Translations under genes and position numbers: made by a program
Source: Candidatus Gracilibacteria bacterium CG12_big_fil_rev_8_21_14_0_65_38_15
GTDB taxonomy: Bacteria > Patescibacteriota > Gracilibacteria > BD1-5 > UBA2023
Reading direction: 5' to 3'
Assembly (NCBI GenBank): GCA_002771035.1
Contig: PCUR01000060.1
Location: forward strand, 1 to 34,710
DNA: 34,710 nucleotides
Shown: piece after piece, positions 7,700 to 15,218 of the stretch
Numbering within the stretch: the first letter of the stretch is position 1
Layout of the letters: every line of letters starts with the position of its first letter
The notes under the pieces: model-generated
What the model saw: the letters and a program-made list of their open reading frames with translations, nothing else
Databases searched by the model: none
What the model was told of the DNA's origin: nothing

Positions 7700-7727
7700 T
7701 TTCTTTCCTTTTTCCGTTTTTTTCTTT
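7700..7727 (+). repeat. 28-nt pyrimidine-tract repeat, copy 1
   Basis: First of five near-identical copies of a tract reading TTTCTTTCCTTTTTCCGT followed by TTTTTTCTTT. Only one C per copy is followed by G and there are no A residues. Copy 1 lies 12 bases after apt. Unlike copies 2-5, it has no hairpin immediately before it. Confidence 0.85.
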
Positions 7728-7741
7728 AGGTCAAAACATAT

Positions 7742-7775
7742 AGTGGGTTCCATTAACTGGCAACCCACTTTTATT
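7742..7775 (+). promoter_or_regulatory. Hairpin between apt and the 101-residue gene
   Basis: An 8-bp stem, AGTGGGTT (7742-7749) with AACCCACT (7762-7769), can be extended inwards by CC/GG. A short T-rich run follows and the next start codon is at 7776. It could be the apt terminator or a structure controlling initiation of the next gene. Confidence 0.5.
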
Positions 7776-8081
7776 ATGGTATACAAGGAAGGATTCAAGA
7801 ATCCGGAAAAACTCGTGAAATTCATACGTGCTCAGACGAGAACCGATCTGCGAGCGCTTATGAAATGAATCGCAAATGAGCTCATCGAGGATTCGAACGG
7901 CGATATGCGCACAACTTATGACTACTTCAGTTCGGTATTCGACAGTCTGTATCATGATCTTATTTTCAACAAAATTGCGATTCAGGAGGAAACGAAGCAG
8001 CTTCTCGAGATTCTCGCAACTCCTATTTTCCGTAAAACTCCCGAAGAACAGAAAAAAATCATCGACGAGTATATTCTCTAG
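7776..8081 (+). CDS. Uncharacterised 101-residue protein
   Basis: I do not recognise this family. The protein is mostly charged and helical (starts MVYKEGFKNPEKLVKFIRAQ and ends TPEEQKKIIDEYIL), with no signal peptide or membrane segment. One TGA (7863-7865, MKG) is read as Gly, so it is decoded by the host code. The ATG at 7776 lies 6 bases after a hairpin and has no Shine-Dalgarno. It is followed after 38 bases by the large membrane protein gene, with no promoter or terminator visible between, so the two are probably co-transcribed. Confidence 0.6.
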
Positions 8082-8119
8082 CTATTCAACATATACTATC
8101 TATTCATAATTCATTCACT

Positions 8120-10549
8120 ATGAAAAATAATACAACTGACATCGATTCTCCAGCGATTGCTTTGGAACAAATCAAGAACATCGATAAGATGCTTGAAAGA
8201 CAGGAACAAAAAAGTTCCGCGGTCGTTTACGACAGATTCAAAACTCTCTGGAACAAACATAAGATTGCAAGATTCGTGACCGGTATAGCACTTGCCGGAG
8301 GAGCAATTGCAGCGACCGCTACGGGAGCTACTGTTGTTGCAGGAGGATTTATCGCAACCAGAGCTATTCTCGGAGCGCTCGGTGGTTACATAGCCACGGA
8401 TGCCGCTTTGGATATGGCAAATAATAAACTTACGAAAAATAAATTAGAAAAACTTGTTTCTAGAATCGATTCAGGAGAATCGACACAGGATCTAGAGAAT
8501 GAATTTCGGAATATTCATAAGGAATTGAGCGAGAGTTTGACTCAGGAAGATATTGAGCAAGAAATGGAAAAAGCGAAAAAATCCAACCAAATAAAAAAGA
8601 CTGCGAAGAAAATCATTGCAGGAGTGGTTGGTATAGGAATTGGGCTCATCGGTGGAACTCATGCCGTAGAAGCCGCTACTAATAGCAATGAAACAATGAG
8701 TCTCGTAAAATCGAAAGTGGCAAATATTTTGGATAATACTCCGACTTCCTCAGCTTATATGTGCATTGCAAAACCTTTCATACAGAATATATTCGATGAT
8801 ATCAAAGCGGATTATCCGAAGCAAGGATATATAACACTGGAACAGGCAGTACGAAGAGTTGAAGGACTCAAACAGGGCATCGATTTAGATCATTCCAGTC
8901 TATTAAAAAAGCTCAATACTTCCGTATATGAACTCGTTCGTAATCCGGACGGTGCTATCGTCCAGACGATGAAAGATATGAATCTGCTCACCGAATGACA
9001 AGGAGTTGATTCGGTTGCCTGACATCTCACCGAATGACAGATTGCCGAGATATTACAGAAAACGTACGGTACGGAATTCTCAGTAAATGGAACTTATATT
9101 TCTGAGCCTTTGACAAATATTCCAGAAATTGGACCCGCAACAGTCATGTCACCTCAGATTCCAACAGAAGTTGTTCCAGAGTCCAATGGATTCGGATGGG
9201 TGAAAGGATTAGGTGTAACCATCGCAACCGGTGTACTCGCTTGGTTCTGATGGACGAAATTCAAAAATAAGAAAGTTTCACCAGAAACTGTTCCTGCTTC
9301 CTCATCGGAAACCGTTCAATCACGAGAAACAACCATAGGCCCTGCTCCAGTACCGGAATCCGGACCTTCTTCTACGGAAAAACAAGTTCCTGTTTGAGAG
9401 ACGAGACCGACACAGGTATCCGAGATTATATGTTATCCGGATTCTGGTCAGAATAATAGTGGATCAACTCCGGAACAAACGATAAGTACTCCTAAAGTAG
9501 CCGAAGTACCAACGGAAGAAGTCGAAAAGAAACTTACGAATGAAGAGGAAGAACGAATGAATCGTTTCGTTACTTTTACAAGAGTAACACAGACTCATTT
9601 TTGATTTACAGTCATCGAAAATGAATCAAAACTTTCAGAAGATATCTTCTGAAAAGTTATCTTCAGGAAAAAGACTCTCGGCTGAGAATTCATCGCCTCC
9701 TATGAACAATCTCCTGGAAGAGATTGAAAAATAGAACTTTCTTGGTTTGATAACAAAAAGAAAAAATCCACTATTACCGAGACTTTGACATCACCAGAGA
9801 AAACGGCAATCGTCTTCGAGAAAATGTTCATAGAAACTCTCAAGAAAAGGGATGAGATAAAGAATCAAGAGATGCTCACACTTCATACGATTGAAGTGAA
9901 TGAACAGGATTTAAAGAGTATGTACCAACAGCTCGAACATCCGTATGTACTTGAGAATAATACGGAAACTGGAGGATATTGGTTCCAGAGCTGTTATGGA
10001 TTACAAGATGGAATTCTTCGATTTGAAAACCTTGTAAATCCGACTATGGAGGAGATGACTCTTACCGGTGGTTCATTTTCAATAAAATCGCCAGATTATA
10101 TATTAAGGAACAAAACTTCTTTTTTTAGAACAAAATTTGACATATTTGAACGAAAATATATAGCTGAAATTCATAATAAGACCGTAGATGAATCGAGAAT
10201 AATATGACAAGAGAAATTAACGATGACAGGTGTTACAAATTATTATAACTATCATAAACATCCAGGATATCTGAATCATCCGAGTTCAATGGATCTGAAT
10301 CATGAAAGTGCTGCCATAGGAAGATTTGAAAGAGAGGTGAATACTTGTGTACTGACATGGTTTATAATCAACGAGCTTCCATCGAATATCAACGAGTCCA
10401 ATAAACCGAGAAATTCCTATATTCTTAGAAGAAGTTGATACGGATGACAGAGGGATTACATTGTTTCCTTCTGGAAAGTACATCGTAATGCAACAAATAG
10501 CAACTATCGAATTTCAGATTGCATTCCTCTTCAGTATAGAATTATATAA
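8120..10549 (+). CDS. Large (809-residue) membrane protein of unknown function
   Basis: The open frame is continuous only if about twelve TGA codons are read as Gly; it ends in TAA. The N-terminal region (about 1-50) is charged and helical. Ala/Gly-rich hydrophobic helices follow near 52-95, then a helical segment, another hydrophobic stretch near 172-190 (IIAGVVGIGIGLIGG) and a third near 375 (GLGVTIATGVLAWFGW). After that comes a long Pro/Ser/Thr/Glu-rich linker, then a C-terminal globular part of about 330 residues. No enzymatic motif is evident. It is downstream of a pyrimidine repeat and the 101-residue gene, and ends before a strong terminator. A membrane-anchored surface or envelope role is only an inference. 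No Shine-Dalgarno at the ATG. Confidence 0.72.
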
Positions 10550-10570
10550 TTCTCGTTCCTTTATTTTTAG

Positions 10571-10603
10571 AAATCCCTCAAATTATTGTAATTTGAGGGA
10601 TTT
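10571..10603 (+). terminator. Terminator after the 809-residue gene
   Basis: A 14-bp stem, AAATCCCTCAAATT (10571-10584) with AATTTGAGGGATTT (10590-10603), runs straight into pyrimidine repeat copy 2. Confidence 0.88.
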
Positions 10604-10628
10604 CTTTTCTTTTTCCGTTTTTTTCTTT
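10601..10628 (+). repeat. 28-nt pyrimidine-tract repeat, copy 2
   Basis: Differs from the other four copies by one C-to-T change. It is fused to the 3' side of a terminator hairpin. From here through the start codon at 10698 the sequence is almost the same as 14304-14404, so the whole promoter/leader is duplicated. Confidence 0.88.
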
Positions 10629-10665
10629 CCTGAAAGTTCTATTATAACATCGCAAAAATAAAATC

Positions 10666-10676
10666 TGCTCTTTAAC
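10666..10676 (+). promoter_or_regulatory. boxA-like motif in the leader of the first E2-like gene
   Basis: TGCTCTTTAAC lies 21 bases before the ATG and 9 bases before the AAGGAG. It matches the core of the E. coli rrn boxA antitermination signal (known to bind NusB-S10). The function here is inferred. An AT-rich possible -10 (TATTATAAC) lies about 30 bases upstream. Confidence 0.5.
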
Positions 10677-10697
10677 TTTCATACGAAGGAGAATATT

Positions 10698-11144
10698 ATG
10701 TTACAGGCTTATTCGTCTGATCTTTTGCCTAATTGGGTAAAAGAGGATAGGAATCAGGAATCCAGGTTGCATCGGGAGATTGCCAATCTTCAGAAACGAT
10801 ACGAAGCATTTCATTTCTATATCGATCGGAGTGAAGAGAATGGAACTTTGTATGCTCATGGCACTCTTTTTACCGCGAGTGAAAATGCGTACAAAATCCG
10901 TCTCTATTTTCCGGAAATTTATCCAAACTGCCAACCACTCCCTGTTGTTATGGACGATGATATCATTCAGGATTATCGCAACAGAACCTATGATTTTCCG
11001 AGTAATTTCGGGCTTCAGAAACAGGGCGTAGCAATGCGAATCACGGATATAGGGGAAAAGTGGAAAACAGATCATCTTGCTACCACTGCTCTGGATTCCG
11101 CTGTTATATGGCTTCATAAATATGAAATTTGGAAAAATCAATAA
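10698..11144 (+). CDS. E2-like (UBC-fold) protein lacking the catalytic Cys
   Basis: A 148-residue protein homologous to the 171-residue E2-like protein encoded at 12485. Shared blocks are FxFYID, LYFPEIYPNCQPLPVV (the E2 FPxxYPxxPP motif), NFGLQKQGVAM and the C-terminal ATTALDSAVIWLHKYEIW. Where the other copy has GVALC, this one has GVAMR, with Arg114 at the candidate catalytic position. It is therefore probably inactive as a ubiquitin-like carrier and may act like UEV proteins (Mms2 type) as a partner. An AAGGAG at 10686-10691 and a boxA-like leader precede it. No TGA codons. It is the first gene of the island and is followed by its own terminator. Confidence 0.72.
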   Translation: MLQAYSSDLLPNWVKEDRNQESRLHREIANLQKRYEAFHFYIDRSEENGTLYAHGTLFTASENAYKIRLYFPEIYPNCQPLPVVMDDDIIQDYRNRTYDFPSNFGLQKQGVAMRITDIGEKWKTDHLATTALDSAVIWLHKYEIWKNQ

Positions 11145-11160
11145 TTCGTTTTATCGATGA

Positions 11161-11193
11161 AACTTTCCGGCAGTAATTATTTCTTGGAAAGTT
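11161..11193 (+). other. Hairpin in the 3' region of the first E2-like gene
   Basis: AACTTTCC (11161-11168) pairs with GGAAAGTT (11186-11193) across a 17-base loop. No T run follows, so it is not a terminator by itself; it may be a 3' UTR structure. Confidence 0.4.
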
Positions 11194-11214
11194 CTCGATT
11201 CTTTAGAAACACTG

Positions 11215-11240
11215 TCCCAGACTTCGGTCTGGGATTTTTC
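11215..11240 (+). terminator. UUCG-loop terminator after the first E2-like gene
   Basis: TCCCAGAC and GTCTGGGA form an 8-bp stem around a TTCG tetraloop, followed by TTTTTC and merging with pyrimidine repeat copy 3. Confidence 0.92.
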
Positions 11241-11264
11241 TTTCCTTTTTCCGTTTTTTTCTTT
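11237..11264 (+). repeat. 28-nt pyrimidine-tract repeat, copy 3
   Basis: Identical to copies 1, 4 and 5 over all 28 bases. It sits directly 3' of a terminator hairpin and about 100 bases before the MORN lipoprotein start. Confidence 0.88.
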
Positions 11265-11320
11265 GTATTAAAAAATACACTCCCAACAAGTTCATTCAAG
11301 TAATTGATTGGATGAAATCG

Positions 11321-11330
11321 GCTCTTTAAC
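11321..11330 (+). promoter_or_regulatory. boxA-like motif in the leader of the lipoprotein gene
   Basis: GCTCTTTAAC followed by ATT lies 31 bases before the ATG at 11362. The upstream sequence here differs from the other two leaders, so the motif is conserved beyond simple duplication. A role in antitermination is inferred. Confidence 0.5.
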
Positions 11331-11361
11331 ATTCTTACAAATACAGCAAAGGAGAAATATC

Positions 11362-11772
11362 ATGAAAATCTTTATCTTGCTCGTACTCGTCTTGATACTT
11401 TCTGGATGTTCCTCCATGGAACAGAAAAAAGTATCTTCCGATGTTTCTTGTGTTTCTGGAAACTGTATCAACGGTTACGGAACAATAATATACAGGAAGA
11501 ATGACAGTCGTTATACGGGAAACTTCTCAAGAGGTTATCGTCATGGAGAGGGTACGCTTGCTTGGAAAAATAGAACAATGCTTTTCGGTACATGGGAAAA
11601 CAATGAACTGAACGGCAGATGTCAGCGTCGTGAAGGAAATGAATCATGGATATCGGGAACATGTAAAGAAGATAACAATAATATTGTTTTTTCCAAGGAT
11701 TCCACGAAACAAAAGAGGGAAGTTTCTCGGCAAAAAGCCCAGAATCTTCTCAGATCGATACAATCTATGTAA
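11362..11772 (+). CDS. Lipoprotein with MORN-like repeats
   Basis: A 136-residue protein. The signal peptide MKIFILLVLVLILSGC ends in a lipobox (LSGC), predicting lipidation of Cys16 and anchoring outside the cytoplasmic membrane. The mature part has MORN-like repeats: GYGTIIYRKNDSRYTGNF, GEGTLAWKNRTMLFGTW and NGRCQRREGNESWISGTC. The tail is basic and helical. MORN repeats often mediate membrane or protein contacts. Start chosen at 11362 because AAAGGAG lies at 11348-11354 and the signal peptide begins here. It has 12 Gly codons and none is UGA. Followed after 27 bases by the next gene of the island. Confidence 0.82.
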   Translation: MKIFILLVLVLILSGCSSMEQKKVSSDVSCVSGNCINGYGTIIYRKNDSRYTGNFSRGYRHGEGTLAWKNRTMLFGTWENNELNGRCQRREGNESWISGTCKEDNNNIVFSKDSTKQKREVSRQKAQNLLRSIQSM

Positions 11773-11799
11773 TTCATCAAATTTGAAAGGAGAAACATC

Positions 11800-12447
11800 A
11801 TGACTCGGAATACATTATCAAAATACATCGTATCTTGTTTTCTTGTCTTCGTATGTTTTTCCTCTCATTTCGCATTGGCAGCATCCTCGATGGATTCTGT
11901 TGATGACGTGCAGGGATTGGAAGCTATGAAGATACAGGAGAAAAACAGGGCGGAACAGCTCGTTTCGCAGATTGATACGGCCGAAGATCCAGAGCAAATC
12001 GTACGCGAATTGGAAATAATTCAAAATAATATCCAAGAGTACAATCTTCGCCTGGAAAGACTTCGGAAAATAGAAGTAGCCGCTCCTGCTCCTGCTGTCG
12101 CAGAAATCATAACCGAAGCACCAGATACGAATAATGGTTCATTGTTCTGGAAAGTGATGATTATTATAATCATCGGTGGAGTGATTTTTTTAAGCAATGA
12201 GGATTCTTCTTCAAGCAGTTCTTCCACTGTAGTCAGCAGATATGAAAATGTAGTACAAACTGAATTACCACGTCGTACTTTTGCACAGAGTACTCCGGTA
12301 AGGACTGAAAGTTCATCGCAACCTTCGCCTAGTCCAAATCGAGGAAATCTTAGAAATCTCGTGAATGAAGGAGTTGAACGTCTTGTTGATCCGAATTTCT
12401 TACGATCACAGGATGCTCAGGATGGAAAATCACCAGGACGTCGTTAA
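11800..12447 (+). CDS. Secreted/membrane protein with coiled coil
   Basis: A 215-residue protein of no family I recognise. It has an N-terminal signal peptide ending FALA|ASS (about residue 27). A charged helical coiled-coil region spans 35-92, followed by an Ala/Pro-rich hinge. One membrane helix lies near 114-131 (WKVMIIIIIGGVIFL), then a Ser-rich linker and a basic C-terminal region rich in Arg, Pro and Ser. If the signal is cleaved, the coiled coil is outside and the tail inside. AAAGGAG (11786-11792) precedes the ATG. No UGA among 8 Gly codons. It lies between the lipoprotein and the Cys-containing E2-like gene with no terminator, so it is likely co-transcribed with both. Confidence 0.75.
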   Translation: MTRNTLSKYIVSCFLVFVCFSSHFALAASSMDSVDDVQGLEAMKIQEKNRAEQLVSQIDTAEDPEQIVRELEIIQNNIQEYNLRLERLRKIEVAAPAPAVAEIITEAPDTNNGSLFWKVMIIIIIGGVIFLSNEDSSSSSSSTVVSRYENVVQTELPRRTFAQSTPVRTESSSQPSPSPNRGNLRNLVNEGVERLVDPNFLRSQDAQDGKSPGRR

Positions 12448-12484
12448 TTCTTTTATGACTATCTTTTTTTGAAGGAGAAATATT

Positions 12485-13000
12485 ATGGCTCAGCTCTCAA
12501 AGGAAATTTTGGAGTTTGTTTTTCGATATATAGATACTCGTCCTGAATTACTCAATGCAAATTGGGTAGTTTCTCGCGGGGAAAAAGGGATAAAAGACCT
12601 TGCTTATGAAATCGGATTGATGAAGTCAAAATATCCTCAATTCGATTTTTATATCGATAAACAAGACAATGCTCTTTATGTTGATGGTTTTCTCATTACG
12701 CACATCGGGAATGTTTATCATGTCCAGATTTATTTTCCCAGTAGTTATCCGTATTATCCACCACTTCCTATAGTTCTGGACAAAGAAATAGTACAGAAGT
12801 GTAAATCGGAAAGTATTCCACATAATCGTGGGATTCAAAGAAATGGCGTAGCGCTCTGTGTTATCAAACCAGACGACACAGTAGGGCAACCATGGACACC
12901 AGATCTCTCCTCTACTACCATCGTAAATACGGTTGCGAAATGGCTTCAAGCGTATGAGTTGTGGCAGAAAACAGGAAAGTGGTGTCTGCGGGAAGTATAA
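12485..13000 (+). CDS. E2-like ubiquitin-conjugating (UBC-fold) protein with candidate catalytic Cys
   Basis: A 171-residue protein with bacterial E2 hallmarks: YFPSSYPYYPPLPIVL near 83-98, then NGVALCVIKPDD with Cys125 as candidate thioester residue. The C-terminal helices carry the WLxxYELWQKTGKW pattern typical of E2 domains found with bacterial E1 partners. An E2 would take a modifier from E1 and pass it to a target. A helical N-terminal extension (1-40) precedes the UBC fold. AAGGAG is at 12472-12477 and no Gly is UGA. It is followed by the small helical gene and the E1-like gene. The E2 assignment rests on motif and neighbours; the substrate and modifier are unknown. Confidence 0.83.
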   Translation: MAQLSKEILEFVFRYIDTRPELLNANWVVSRGEKGIKDLAYEIGLMKSKYPQFDFYIDKQDNALYVDGFLITHIGNVYHVQIYFPSSYPYYPPLPIVLDKEIVQKCKSESIPHNRGIQRNGVALCVIKPDDTVGQPWTPDLSSTTIVNTVAKWLQAYELWQKTGKWCLREV

Positions 13001-13053
13001 CAAGTATCTGTTTTTTTTAAATTGCAATACTTTTATCTTAAAGGAGAATTATC

Positions 13054-13299
13054 ATGAGTTACGATGAAAAAGCATTAAAAGATGCGGGTCTTGGTGTTTC
13101 CGGTGCAAGGAAGACTATGACCAAAGCAAAGGAAAATGAGCTTGTACAGATGTTGGAGCGGGCAAAAAATGGAATGGGACAGCTTATGATTGCGCCAACA
13201 GGGACAATCTATGATGCTGATTCCGAAGCAGTACGAACCGCTCCGAAAGAAGTTCAAGATTCACTCAATCATACAAGTACACTTGAGCAGTCGTTCTAA
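13054..13299 (+). CDS. Small (81-residue) protein between E2-like and E1-like genes
   Basis: I do not recognise the family. The N-terminal half is basic and probably helical (KTMTKAKENELVQMLERAKN). The middle GQLMIAPTGTIYDADSEAV may form a beta hairpin, and the C-terminus is acidic/polar. It does not end in Gly-Gly and does not look like a beta-grasp fold, so I do not call it a ubiquitin-like modifier. Its place between E2 and E1 still makes it the best candidate for a modifier, substrate or adaptor. AAGGAG is at 13041-13046. No UGA. Confidence 0.68.
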   Translation: MSYDEKALKDAGLGVSGARKTMTKAKENELVQMLERAKNGMGQLMIAPTGTIYDADSEAVRTAPKEVQDSLNHTSTLEQSF

Positions 13300-13300
13300 C

Positions 13301-13346
13301 AAGATAAGTCCTCAATAAAGATTAATCTCTCTTGAGGACTTATCTT
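13301..13346 (+). promoter_or_regulatory. 15-bp perfect hairpin between the small gene and the E1-like gene
   Basis: AAGATAAGTCCTCAA (13301-13315) pairs with TTGAGGACTTATCTT (13332-13346). It begins right after the stop codon and ends two bases before the AAGGAG of the E1-like gene. It lacks a T run, so it is probably an mRNA processing, stability or translation-control element and not a terminator. Confidence 0.7.
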
Positions 13347-13359
13347 ATAAGGAGATATC

Positions 13360-14223
13360 ATGAAAAACAAACAAAAAATTCCGAAAGAGGATGTATATGA
13401 GGCGTCAAAAAATCCGCGCACCAACACTCTCTACGGACAAATCGACAAAACAGTGACTATCATCGGTCTCGGCGGCGGTGGGGAAATCGCTCTCCATCTC
13501 GCTCGTTCCGGTGTACGTCGTCTAAATCTCATCGATTTCGATACGCTGGAAGTCGGAAATCTGGTGCGTCATGCTTGCGGATCGAAGTACATCGGCCAAA
13601 ATAAGGCCGAAGCAGTACGGGATTTGCTCGTGGAACACAATCCTGTGTGTAAAGGAAGCATTCTCGCTTACAACTGGGATATTTTCAAACATCGGGAAGA
13701 GTTTCAATCGATTGTTTCTACTTCGGATGCAGTCATTATCGCAACCGATACGGATTCATCCCGTTTGTTTATCAATGATGTATGTGTGGAAACGAACACT
13801 CCGGCTGTATTTGTAACAATGTTCCCGAAAGGAGTTGGAGGACAAATTTTCTCTTATCTTCCATGGGCTGCTTGTTATGGTTGTTTTGCACATCATGAAG
13901 GACGCCAAGGATTCATACAAAAATATGTGGACACCTTGGAAAAAATAGACTGCGCATCCGACAGAGATGTTCGTTCTATGCCAGGGCTCGGCATCGATCA
14001 AAGTTTTTTGGCAGCAATTGCTGCTCGGAAAACACTCGATATCCTTCTCTTGGATCAAGAACATTTACTTCCTTCTCTCGGCAATGAAAATCGTATCGTC
14101 TGGTCGACTTCAGGGATTCCGCGAGTAATTAGTAAACCGCTTACATCCGCATCAGAGGATGTTCCAAAACATGAAGAATGTTACTCATGTGGTAATTCAC
14201 AAAAAATACAAACCAATCTCTAA
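13360..14223 (+). CDS. E1-like ThiF/MoeB-family adenylating enzyme
   Basis: A 287-residue Rossmann-fold protein. The nucleotide loop is VTIIGLGGGGEIA (33-44). The acidic end of strand 2 is LIDFDTLEVGNLVRH (57-71), matching the E1 D-x-D...N-x-x-R pattern. Lys82 in GQNKAEA and ATDTDSSR (128-135) match further ATP/Mg sites. Two Cys pairs, CYGC (172-175) and CYSC (274-277), form a likely zinc site as in MoeB/ThiF/E1 proteins. Cys198 (IDCASD) is a candidate transfer Cys. Such enzymes adenylate the C-terminus of a ubiquitin-like protein. It follows the E2-like and small genes. AAGGAG at 13349-13354. All 22 Gly codons are GGN. No JAB-type peptidase is encoded nearby. Confidence 0.88.
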   Translation: MKNKQKIPKEDVYEASKNPRTNTLYGQIDKTVTIIGLGGGGEIALHLARSGVRRLNLIDFDTLEVGNLVRHACGSKYIGQNKAEAVRDLLVEHNPVCKGSILAYNWDIFKHREEFQSIVSTSDAVIIATDTDSSRLFINDVCVETNTPAVFVTMFPKGVGGQIFSYLPWAACYGCFAHHEGRQGFIQKYVDTLEKIDCASDRDVRSMPGLGIDQSFLAAIAARKTLDILLLDQEHLLPSLGNENRIVWSTSGIPRVISKPLTSASEDVPKHEECYSCGNSQKIQTNL

Positions 14224-14271
14224 ACAGAAATTTCCCGTTCGATTCACTTCGAATCTGGAGATTCATCACTC

Positions 14272-14305
14272 ATAAAGGACCGCGCAATGCGGTCCTTTAT
14301 TTATT
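14272..14305 (+). terminator. Terminator after the E1-like gene
   Basis: Stem ATAAAGGACCGC with GCGGTCCTTTAT around a GCAAT loop, followed by T-rich sequence. Confidence 0.85.
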
Positions 14306-14331
14306 TCTTTCCTTTTTCCGTTTTTTTCTTT
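14304..14331 (+). repeat. 28-nt pyrimidine-tract repeat, copy 4
   Basis: Identical to copies 1, 3 and 5. It stands between the terminator of the E1-like gene and the leader of the next membrane protein gene. Confidence 0.88.
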
Positions 14332-14368
14332 CTGGAAAGCTCTATAGTAATCTCGCAAAAATAAAATC

Positions 14369-14379
14369 TGCTCTTTAAC
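14369..14379 (+). promoter_or_regulatory. boxA-like motif in the third island leader
   Basis: TGCTCTTTAAC lies 22 bases before the ATG at 14402. About 70 bases of leader match that of the gene at 10698 with only a few changes. A possible -10 (TATAGTAAT) lies upstream. Confidence 0.5.
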
Positions 14380-14401
14380 TTTCTATACGAAGGAGAATAT
14401 T

Positions 14402-14926
14402 ATGTCGCAATTCAAAAGCTATTTGCAGGCAGGAATACTTACCGAACTGTTCGAGAAAGCTTTTCTGTCCGGAAAATTTTCCAAAACATTGGCAATCACA
14501 GCTTTCATTTTCATCGGAGTATTCTGGGTAGGAAAGATAATTTTCAAGGGAATATTCTTTATTTTTTCGGCACCTTGGAATACCCAAGCGGACGAGACGT
14601 ACCGTTCGCTTAAAAAAGTCGCAAACGACGCGGTGGTTTCCGGAAAAACCATTAATTCCATAGAAAAAAATATGGATTGGATGGAAGGGAAGTGGCATTC
14701 GTTGAACTTTCGTAACACGAATGGACGGGGACAAATAAGCGAAGTTCTTTTCTTGGTTCATGCCAAGCTCGGTTATATGCGAATTTTCATATATTCCGAG
14801 TCCGGAGAAACTCTAGAACTTCTCTGGGAACACCTGCATAAGTTCACCGGCATTCCGGAAAATTGCGATCTGAAGATCGAGAATCTTTCGGAAATATACC
14901 ACAAAATGTACCTGAATCTTCTGTAA
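14402..14926 (+). CDS. Membrane-anchored protein of the ubiquitin-like island
   Basis: A 174-residue protein that I do not recognise. One or two hydrophobic helices lie near 28-60 (LAITAFIFIGVFWVGKIIFK, then IFFIFSAPW). A cytoplasm-sized domain of about 115 residues follows, with alternating hydrophobic strands in the middle (SEVLFLVHAKLGYMRIFIYS) and a helical C-terminus. It has an AAGGAG at 14390-14395 and a leader nearly identical to that of the first E2-like gene, so the two should be co-regulated. No UGA among its 12 Gly codons. A membrane partner or target of the conjugation system is possible but unproven. Confidence 0.75.
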   Translation: MSQFKSYLQAGILTELFEKAFLSGKFSKTLAITAFIFIGVFWVGKIIFKGIFFIFSAPWNTQADETYRSLKKVANDAVVSGKTINSIEKNMDWMEGKWHSLNFRNTNGRGQISEVLFLVHAKLGYMRIFIYSESGETLELLWEHLHKFTGIPENCDLKIENLSEIYHKMYLNLL

Positions 14927-14939
14927 AAAAGGGAATAAA

Positions 14940-15218
14940 ATGTTTACTTTTCTCATTCTTAAATATTTCGGTATTTCTATCGGAAGTTTTCTCTTCTGTA
15001 TCTGGTTTGTACTAATAATCCTGGATTATTTCCATGGCGTGCCGGTATGAATCCCGATAAAATATTCATCGTTAAACATAAATAAATCTCTCTGAAATTT
15101 CCCGTTCGATTCACTTCGAATCTGGAAATCTCTCCTCCAAATAGGATCGCGCAATGCGGTCCTATTTTTATTTCTTTCCTTTTTCCGTTTTTTTCTTTCC
15201 TTGAAAAAGTATAAGTAG
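14940..15218 (+). CDS. Small membrane peptide ORF with doubtful 3' end
   Basis: An ATG 13 bases after the preceding stop, with a weak AAAGGGA before it, opens a frame encoding one hydrophobic helix (start MFTFLILKYFGISIGSFLF). After 36 codons there is a TGA at 15048-15050. With the standard code this is a tidy 36-residue membrane peptide. With UGA as Gly, the frame runs on through the palindrome, the terminator and pyrimidine repeat copy 5 to TAG at 15216-15218, giving 92 residues with a meaningless tail. The peptide start looks real; the read-through part does not. This may be the trace of a gene taken from a standard-code genome. Confidence 0.4.
15094..15198 (+). repeat. Duplicated 3' UTR: palindrome, terminator and pyrimidine tract, copy B
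   Basis: Second copy of the 14227-14331 unit. Its terminator stem (15140-15150 with 15156-15166, GCAAT loop) swaps an A-T pair for T-A relative to copy A and has one G-T wobble. Pyrimidine repeat copy 5 is at 15171-15198. Confidence 0.82.
15171..15198 (+). repeat. 28-nt pyrimidine-tract repeat, copy 5
   Basis: Identical to copies 1, 3 and 4. It is the last copy in the window and precedes the PKD-like surface protein gene by 47 bases; no copy is seen beyond it. Confidence 0.88.

Follow-up and report, generated by a model that had tools for sequence, protein, structure and literature searches.

Type II CBASS (cyclic-oligonucleotide-based anti-phage signalling system) combines Cap2, an E1–E2 fusion, or a stand-alone E2 with the JAB protein Cap3. 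Here, we describe a related gene cluster in a 34,710-nucleotide stretch of DNA, the window (contig PCUR01000060.1, positions 1 to 34,710), from Candidatus Gracilibacteria bacterium CG12_big_fil_rev_8_21_14_0_65_38_15 (assembly GCA_002771035.1), which reads TGA as glycine (genetic code 25). The cluster consists of a putative conjugation module (an E1, an E2, a UEV-like E2 homolog, three membrane or lipoprotein partners and a small protein, HEL) paired with a predicted membrane protease of the JAMM type, and this arrangement recurs across genomes of a single code-25 gracilibacterial family (Table 1). Judged by codon use, stops and ribosome-binding sites, the module is written for a ribosome that uses the standard code and Shine–Dalgarno (SD) sites, and the JAMM gene for the resident code-25 ribosome.

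The cluster shares with type II CBASS an E1 adenylation domain, a CBASS-type E2 and a JAMM protease. However, E1 and E2 are separate proteins, the JAMM domain is fused to a multi-transmembrane (TM) protein, and the UEV-like partner, the membrane and lipoprotein partners and the split code have no counterpart there. One CBASS study reports conjugation of the CD-NTase itself (PMC10097602); no separate ubiquitin-like protein is needed there. Cyclase models did not match the eight cluster proteins tested, with the exception of one model whose end the E2 matches weakly. BilABCD likewise brings E1, E2 and JAMM together (PMC11354881), but its E1, BilD, has two domains including a Cys domain, whereas the E1 of the window is a single ThiF-type domain; furthermore, no beta-grasp BilA is recognisable in the cluster, and BilABCD has no TM-JAMM, MORN lipoprotein or UEV-like protein. 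Nor does the cluster belong to PRTRC, which has a set of ThiF, ParB and Ubl: the contig is chromosomal and bears dnaA, and no PRTRC model of NCBIfam was matched. Because a CD-NTase and a recognisable BilA-type tag are absent, the cluster is related to CBASS and Bil without belonging to either. It has the broader features of bacterial E1–E2–JAMM systems, namely a ThiF-fold E1, an E2 with its cysteine and a JAMM domain with E and HxHx7SxxD, and it enlarges this group by a putative system in which the JAMM is membrane-bound and the E2 has a UEV-like companion.

The conjugation module and its membrane JAMM

The initial annotation had proposed a distinct, membrane-associated E1/E2 system of seven genes on one strand. 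All seven genes are present, and E2 profiles and co-occurrence in other genomes support a distinct, membrane-associated conjugation module. Having been made with the standard code, the annotation missed the JAMM gene, and it did not remark that the module is SD-led, free of TGA-encoded glycine and unlike the rest of the genome.

The ThiF/MoeB fold first assigned to the E1 holds. The protein matches Pfam ThiF at 1.7e-28 and carries a nucleotide-binding glycine-rich loop with conserved Arg, Asp and Lys residues. Profile searches find MoeB at 3e-17 and also UBA5, Cap2 and MccB, and the predicted fold, modelled on an HEL–E1 fusion (L017), resembles MoeB, ThiF and UBA5. The E2 matches the PADLOC model of CBASS E2 at 3.5e-15, and its family profile retrieves the bacterial E2 8hsb at 7.7e-5, followed by UBC enzymes. 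Overall, the E1 and E2s are nearest to CBASS Cap2-type and E2 models in the PADLOC search.

Two E2-like proteins had been announced, and profile searches place both in the UBC/E2 superfamily. Only one has the catalytic cysteine: the position of Cys125 is aligned as Cys in all E2s but two UEV-like ones. The protein starting at 10698 is homologous to the E2 (35% identity, with weak matches to E2 models) and has Arg at this position (GVAMR vs GVALC). Since a relative in L012 is also Cys-less, it is best read as a predicted inactive, UEV-like partner of the E2. In eukaryotes, Ubc13/Uev1 (Mms2) consists of an active E2 and an E2-fold partner without catalytic cysteine. The predicted pair is similar in setting an E2 with Cys beside a Cys-less homolog; it differs in that the UEV-like protein occurs only in the window and in one relative (G011), and the likeness concerns genes, not chain building. 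A ThiF–E2 cluster with a patatin-like phospholipase on the Mesorhizobium plasmid pMspAR10a (L115) is probably a further E1/E2 operon of the defence type.

The JAMM gene adjoins the conjugation genes on their upstream side. Its domain is hidden from a standard-code reading because in-frame TGAs break the frame, the first one at residue 293, and the earlier statement that no JAB peptidase is recognisable falls with it. The protein has two hydrophobic segments (residues ~49-79 and ~165-183), with a weaker third (~358-375) located by eye; by the positive-inside rule, the JAMM domain would lie on the cytoplasmic side. The motif comprises E616 followed by HKHPGYLNHPSSMD, that is HxHx7SxxD (H712, H714, S722, D725), and these five residues are invariant in seven relatives. 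Profile matches are weak (Prok-JAB 0.23; Mov34/MPN 2kcq 1.2), and the putative assignment is based on the conserved motif and on where the gene lies. In G014, a second TM-JAMM gene (L014:1812-3881, minus strand) has no adjoining conjugation genes. In this nomenclature, G000 is the genome of the window, G004, G010, G011, G013, G014, G016, G022, G023 and G026 are other code-25 genomes, and L-numbers denote individual DNA stretches.

The 'small helical protein' of the initial annotation is present and is better described as the conserved HEL family. Its C-terminus is often -SF, and in two genomes (G013, G022) it is fused to the N-terminus of the E1. HEL has no convincing match in Pfam, NCBIfam, PADLOC or PDB, and its predicted model is of low confidence (pLDDT 58) and not beta-grasp, so the idea of HEL as a beta-grasp ubiquitin-like protein is not supported. 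In agreement with the initial annotation, no ubiquitin-like (beta-grasp) protein is recognisable among the cluster proteins by Pfam, NCBIfam, PADLOC, PDB or the HEL model. MEM1 evolves fast, and its C-terminal G-x-[VI]-P-x-[DS]-x-x is retained in seven of eight proteins. Speculatively, the C-terminus of MEM1 or of HEL could serve as the activated tail. The MORN repeats of the lipoprotein are supported by Pfam and both membrane proteins, MEM1 and MEM2, are confirmed. We rejected the suggestion that the epibiont, as we call the gracilibacterium, lacks lipoprotein processing, as LspA is present in eight of nine genomes.

Within a single family, seven genomes from six genera hold JAMM, membrane and lipoprotein partners, E2, HEL and E1 together; the related records are mostly metagenome-assembled genomes of Candidatus Gracilibacteria. 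The E1 with this neighbourhood is found in 7 of the 27 genomes of the family; of 353 genomes of the class, none of the others has a relative above the generic ThiF level. At the other loci the order is TM-JAMM, MEM2, lipoprotein, MEM1, (UEV), E2, HEL and E1. In G016, the JAMM gene lies between HEL and E1; G014 has a second copy of the module, split across two contig ends; the short contig of G023 ends before the point where JAMM could appear.

Two genetic codes in one cluster

The window is part of a 1.01-Mb, 98%-complete genome in which long frames are open only with TGA read as glycine. In eight of nine genomes one release factor was found, which scores below the prfB (RF2) cut-off; those read carry the RF1 motif PxT without SPF, the G011 copy not being read cleanly. 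At the 3′ end of 16S rRNA (L082, L083, L084, L086), the anti-SD region is changed in this family to GGACTATCTCC/T vs the usual GGATCACCTCC.

Codons of the module were counted in 45 genes from eight loci, each gene being cut at its first TAA, TAG or TGA. These genes contain 538 GGN glycine codons and no TGA for glycine; the cut itself could by construction mask internal TGAs. Their stops (44 genes) are TAA in 27, TGA in 14 and TAG in three. The cut C-termini align between genera (E2 ending in W-x-LPE, HEL in SF, and likewise MEM2, E1 and MEM1), and 11 of the TGA stops, in these five alignable families, fall at homologous C-termini. As the cut leaves the proteins with ends that match those of their homologs, these TGAs act as stops; the remaining three, in lipoprotein genes, are less certain. 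Read as glycine, the TGA stops would be passed by 2 to 361 residues. In addition, an SD site precedes 42 of the 45 genes. The module thus combines the absence of TGA-encoded glycine with TGA stops, SD sites and a signature unlike that of resident genes, although in the window itself all seven stops are TAA.

The JAMM genes at six loci contain 110 TGA among 326 glycine codons, at some loci even within the JAMM motif; they end only in TAA or TAG and have no SD site. Among JAMM and ordinary genes, TGA makes up to 76% of glycine codons and SD sites are almost never found. In ordinary genes, as sampled from stretches and not whole genomes, the TGA share is 12-13% in G000, 24% in G011 and 75% in G016, and SD-led genes are at about chance level (1/67; 4/274, two of them edge artefacts; 4/376 in G016). 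Given the genome-wide shares, a TGA-free module has a log10 P of -58, of which G016 contributes -33; this value is a measure and not an exact probability, as the genes are related.

One explanation confined to the epibiont is high expression: strong promoters, boxA and SD would mark a highly expressed surface or stress operon that does without rare TGA-glycine codons so as to be translated efficiently. Ribosomal proteins, RpoA and EF-Tu of G000 and G014 are indeed nearly without TGA, so the absence of TGA alone is weak evidence in these two genomes. A boxA-like sequence in the G011 rRNA leader points the same way. Nevertheless, the highly expressed genes of G016 and G011 use TGA and the module does not. 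In G016, EF-Tu, RpoA, S4, S9, S11, L13 and L17 together contain 50 GGN and 62 TGA; against this usage, the 54 GGN and 0 TGA of the G016 module have a probability of ~1e-19. Expression level therefore fails to explain the TGA-free module in G016. Avoidance of TGA by expression level is rejected for G016 and G011 and is largely refuted by the G016 counts together with the 14 TGA stops and the readthrough that they would entail. We consider this explanation very improbable.

The shared expression signals first noted for the cluster were recovered. The 28-base T-rich element TTTCTTTCCTTTTTCCGTTTTTTTCTTT has five copies in G000, all within 7700-15198, each ~11 nt upstream of a -10-like box. The element also precedes code-25 genes, and its G016 version stands before module and code-25 genes alike; the module is therefore probably transcribed in the epibiont. 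The boxA-like GCTCTTTAAC precedes three units in the window, a 10-mer by itself not rarer than chance, and similar boxes precede the first genes of homologous units in several genomes. The argument that boxA proves the host to be proteobacterial was dropped in view of the G011 rRNA leader. Likewise, SD sites as proof of foreign ribosomes had to be softened, the 16S tail of G000 and G014 still holding CUCCUU.

Residence, transfer and a possible partner cell

The split of codes could also date from the origin of the module. It would then be a mobile defence operon, taken up again and again from bacteria of the standard code, that keeps the donor code and SD sites and, should it work at all, does so in the epibiont as a CBASS- or Bil-like defence. 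The nearness of E1 and E2s to CBASS models, the patchy occurrence within the family and the presence of other SD-led, standard-code genes of commonly transferred kinds fit such a history. So do a slightly raised G+C content at third codon positions (GC3) and fewer AGR and ATA codons; in most genomes the module prefers CGT/CGC and GGT/GGC to these. However, GC3 of the module ranges from 0.34 to 0.71 in step with the resident genome (0.29 to 0.67 in the background), with the largest excess in G011 (0.45 vs 0.29), which argues against fresh transfer. The E1 and E2 of the congeners G013 and G022 retain 65-71% protein identity despite GC3 values of 0.71 vs 0.41. Searches of GTDB, viral, phage and plasmid collections gave no close relative outside Gracilibacteria: plasmids and phages yielded nothing nearer than generic ThiF relatives (<=38% identity), and viral contigs no relative. 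GC3 tracking and the absence of donors together weaken the case for fresh horizontal transfer. Moreover, the code-25 JAMM is conserved alongside, the identities of E1, JAMM and RF1 co-vary between genomes, and the promoter elements are of resident type. On balance, we regard a transferred operon as rather unlikely.

We tentatively favour translation of the module in a partner cell that uses the standard code, the JAMM being made in the epibiont as a deconjugase or for self-protection. Module DNA or RNA would pass to the partner, most likely a bacterium that serves the attached epibiont as host or prey, where standard-code, SD-using ribosomes would translate it productively. In the partner cell, E1 would adenylate a C-terminal tail (our best guesses are the conserved tail of MEM1, or HEL), and E2, aided by the UEV-like protein, would join this tail to targets at the membrane. 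Because a standard-code ribosome stops at the first TGA of the JAMM gene, the protease would be truncated there, and deconjugation, for self-protection or recycling, would be confined to the epibiont.

Agrobacterium T-DNA is a set of genes carried by one organism and written for expression in another. The module resembles it in having expression signals foreign to the carrier, whose other genes are in its own language. In contrast to T-DNA, carrier and presumed recipient would both be bacteria, and border repeats, transfer and relaxase genes were not identified here.

Several points weigh against translation in a partner cell. The locus has no identified delivery system, and the host is not known. 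As transcription probably takes place in the epibiont, RNA would have to move or the promoter would have to work elsewhere too. The CUCCUU of the 16S tail makes SD pairing in the epibiont possible for G000 and G014, and the AAGGAGA of the window fits the G000 tail no worse than the canonical one. The module of the window, with its TAA stops, could be made at home too. To these are added the nearly TGA-free, highly expressed genes of G000 and G014, and the scattered single genes described below, which could be ordinary recent acquisitions.

In an alternative without a partner cell, the split would act as an alarm against a switch of code. The JAMM would hold the module in check in the epibiont; a standard-code phage bringing RF2 would leave the JAMM incomplete and the module proteins properly terminated, and conjugation, set free, would act as abortive infection. 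The split yields such a logic directly, and most E1/E2 systems known from bacteria are directed against phages. Spacers of Gracilibacteria do target code-11-compatible phages, but these are described as compatible with both codes (PMC10746230), and an alarm would leave the SD sites and the chemoreceptor and desaturase genes of the same signature unexplained. We judge it improbable. The code-11-compatible phages of Gracilibacteria and Absconditabacteria resemble the module in having no in-frame TGA though tied to code-25 cells (PMC10746230). They differ in that the genes of the window are chromosomal and stand beside TGA-rich genes, the module has TGA stops, and the loci examined contain no phage genes. 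Neighbouring conserved genes split between two codes were not found described in the searchable literature, which leaves most subscription papers and preprints out of reach; the nearest description is PMC10746230, and the novelty of the two-code split is provisional.

Other genes with the same signature

Genes starting with TTAAC-SD-ATG were sought in 27 genomes. They exceed the control in G016 (7 vs 0) and G000 (6 vs 2), and most genomes show no excess; as the scan selects for the box, the single genes that it yields, which make up part of those listed in Table 1, lend boxA no independent support. Over ~540 kb of G016 and ~380 kb of G000, the majority of SD-led genes lack TGA as well, among them the chemoreceptors of both genomes, a MORN protein and the zinc-finger paralogs. 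The zinc-finger-like gene of L119 has a T-rich element and a boxA-like box upstream.

Bacteria of the Candidate Phyla Radiation (CPR) lack a full motility and chemotaxis machinery (PMC11974145). Hosts bearing Vampirococcus, a related code-25 epibiont, swim faster and with more turns (PMC8080830), and a link between this behaviour and the standard-code chemoreceptors is suggestive only. It is conceivable, though doubtful, that Gracilibacteria hold a host-language gene set (the E1–E2 module, chemoreceptors, desaturase, exopolysaccharide and lipoprotein genes) that is delivered to and expressed in the host, while the private-code deconjugase stays at home. One bacterium would then genetically manipulate another, and the genetic code would decide which of the two makes each protein. 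If so, the signature of no TGA-glycine, TGA stop and SD site would serve to find genes directed at the host by uncultured epibionts, which has long been a question for CPR.

Table 1. Features of the cluster in the window and, below them, SD-led, standard-code genes elsewhere.
Feature	Position	Strand	Remarks
T-rich promoter-like element, copy 1	7700..7727	+	element, ~11 nt, -10-like box
First gene after copy 1, 101 aa	7776..8081	+	code 25, 1 TGA
TM-JAMM, 809-aa membrane protein, C-terminal JAMM/MPN+ domain (putative)	8120..10549	+	code 25, 12 in-frame TGA (Gly), no SD
T-rich element, copy 2	10601..10628	+	
boxA-like GCTCTTTAAC	10667..10676	+	then strong SD (GAAGGAGAA)
UEV-like E2 homolog, 148 aa, catalytic Cys absent	10698..11144	+	standard code, SD
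T-rich element, copy 3	11237..11264	+	
boxA-like GCTCTTTAAC	11321..11330	+	
MORN-repeat lipoprotein, 136 aa	11362..11772	+	start corrected to 11362; standard code, SD
MEM1, signal-peptide/TM protein, long disordered-looking tail	11800..12447	+	C-terminal motif in relatives
E2 conjugating enzyme, 171 aa	12485..13000	+	putative catalytic Cys125; standard code, SD
HEL, 81 aa, conserved, encoded between E2 and E1	13054..13299	+	standard code, SD
E1-like adenylyltransferase, 287 aa	13360..14223	+	MoeB/ThiF/UBA5 fold; CxxC...CxxC; invariant Cys198; standard code, SD
T-rich element, copy 4	14304..14331	+	
boxA-like GCTCTTTAAC	14370..14379	+	
MEM2, N-terminal TM and soluble domain, 174 aa	14402..14926	+	standard code, SD
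T-rich element, copy 5	15171..15198	+	
PKD surface protein, 847 aa	15246..17789	+	code 25, 16 TGA; shares promoter element
Aer-like chemoreceptor, PAS + MCP + CZB, 683 aa	L171:2580-4628, G000 contig C38	-	43 GGN, 0 TGA, SD; neighbours use TGA
Two MCP chemoreceptors	L168:2434-4143, L130:11857-13482, G016	-	SD-led, TGA-free, one with TGA stop
Fatty-acid desaturase	L174:6430-7611, G026	-	SD-led, TGA-free
HlyD-like + glycosyltransferase pair	L176:1066-4237, G004	-	SD-led, TGA-free
Lipoprotein	L175:4628-5128, G010	-	SD-led, TGA-free
Two paralogous zinc-finger-like genes	L119:11240-12028 (-), L167:3057-3326 (+), G016		SD-led, TGA-free
Membrane protein, 115 aa	L186:3640-3987, G000 contig C64	-	SD-led, TGA-free; sigma-70-like promoter TTGACA...TATATT

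The PKD surface protein is only a neighbour of the cluster, since it is not seen in the other loci. Lastly, two type IV pilin-like genes with an N-methylation motif lie near dnaA in the window, at 951-1610 and 2286-2921, both on the minus strand.

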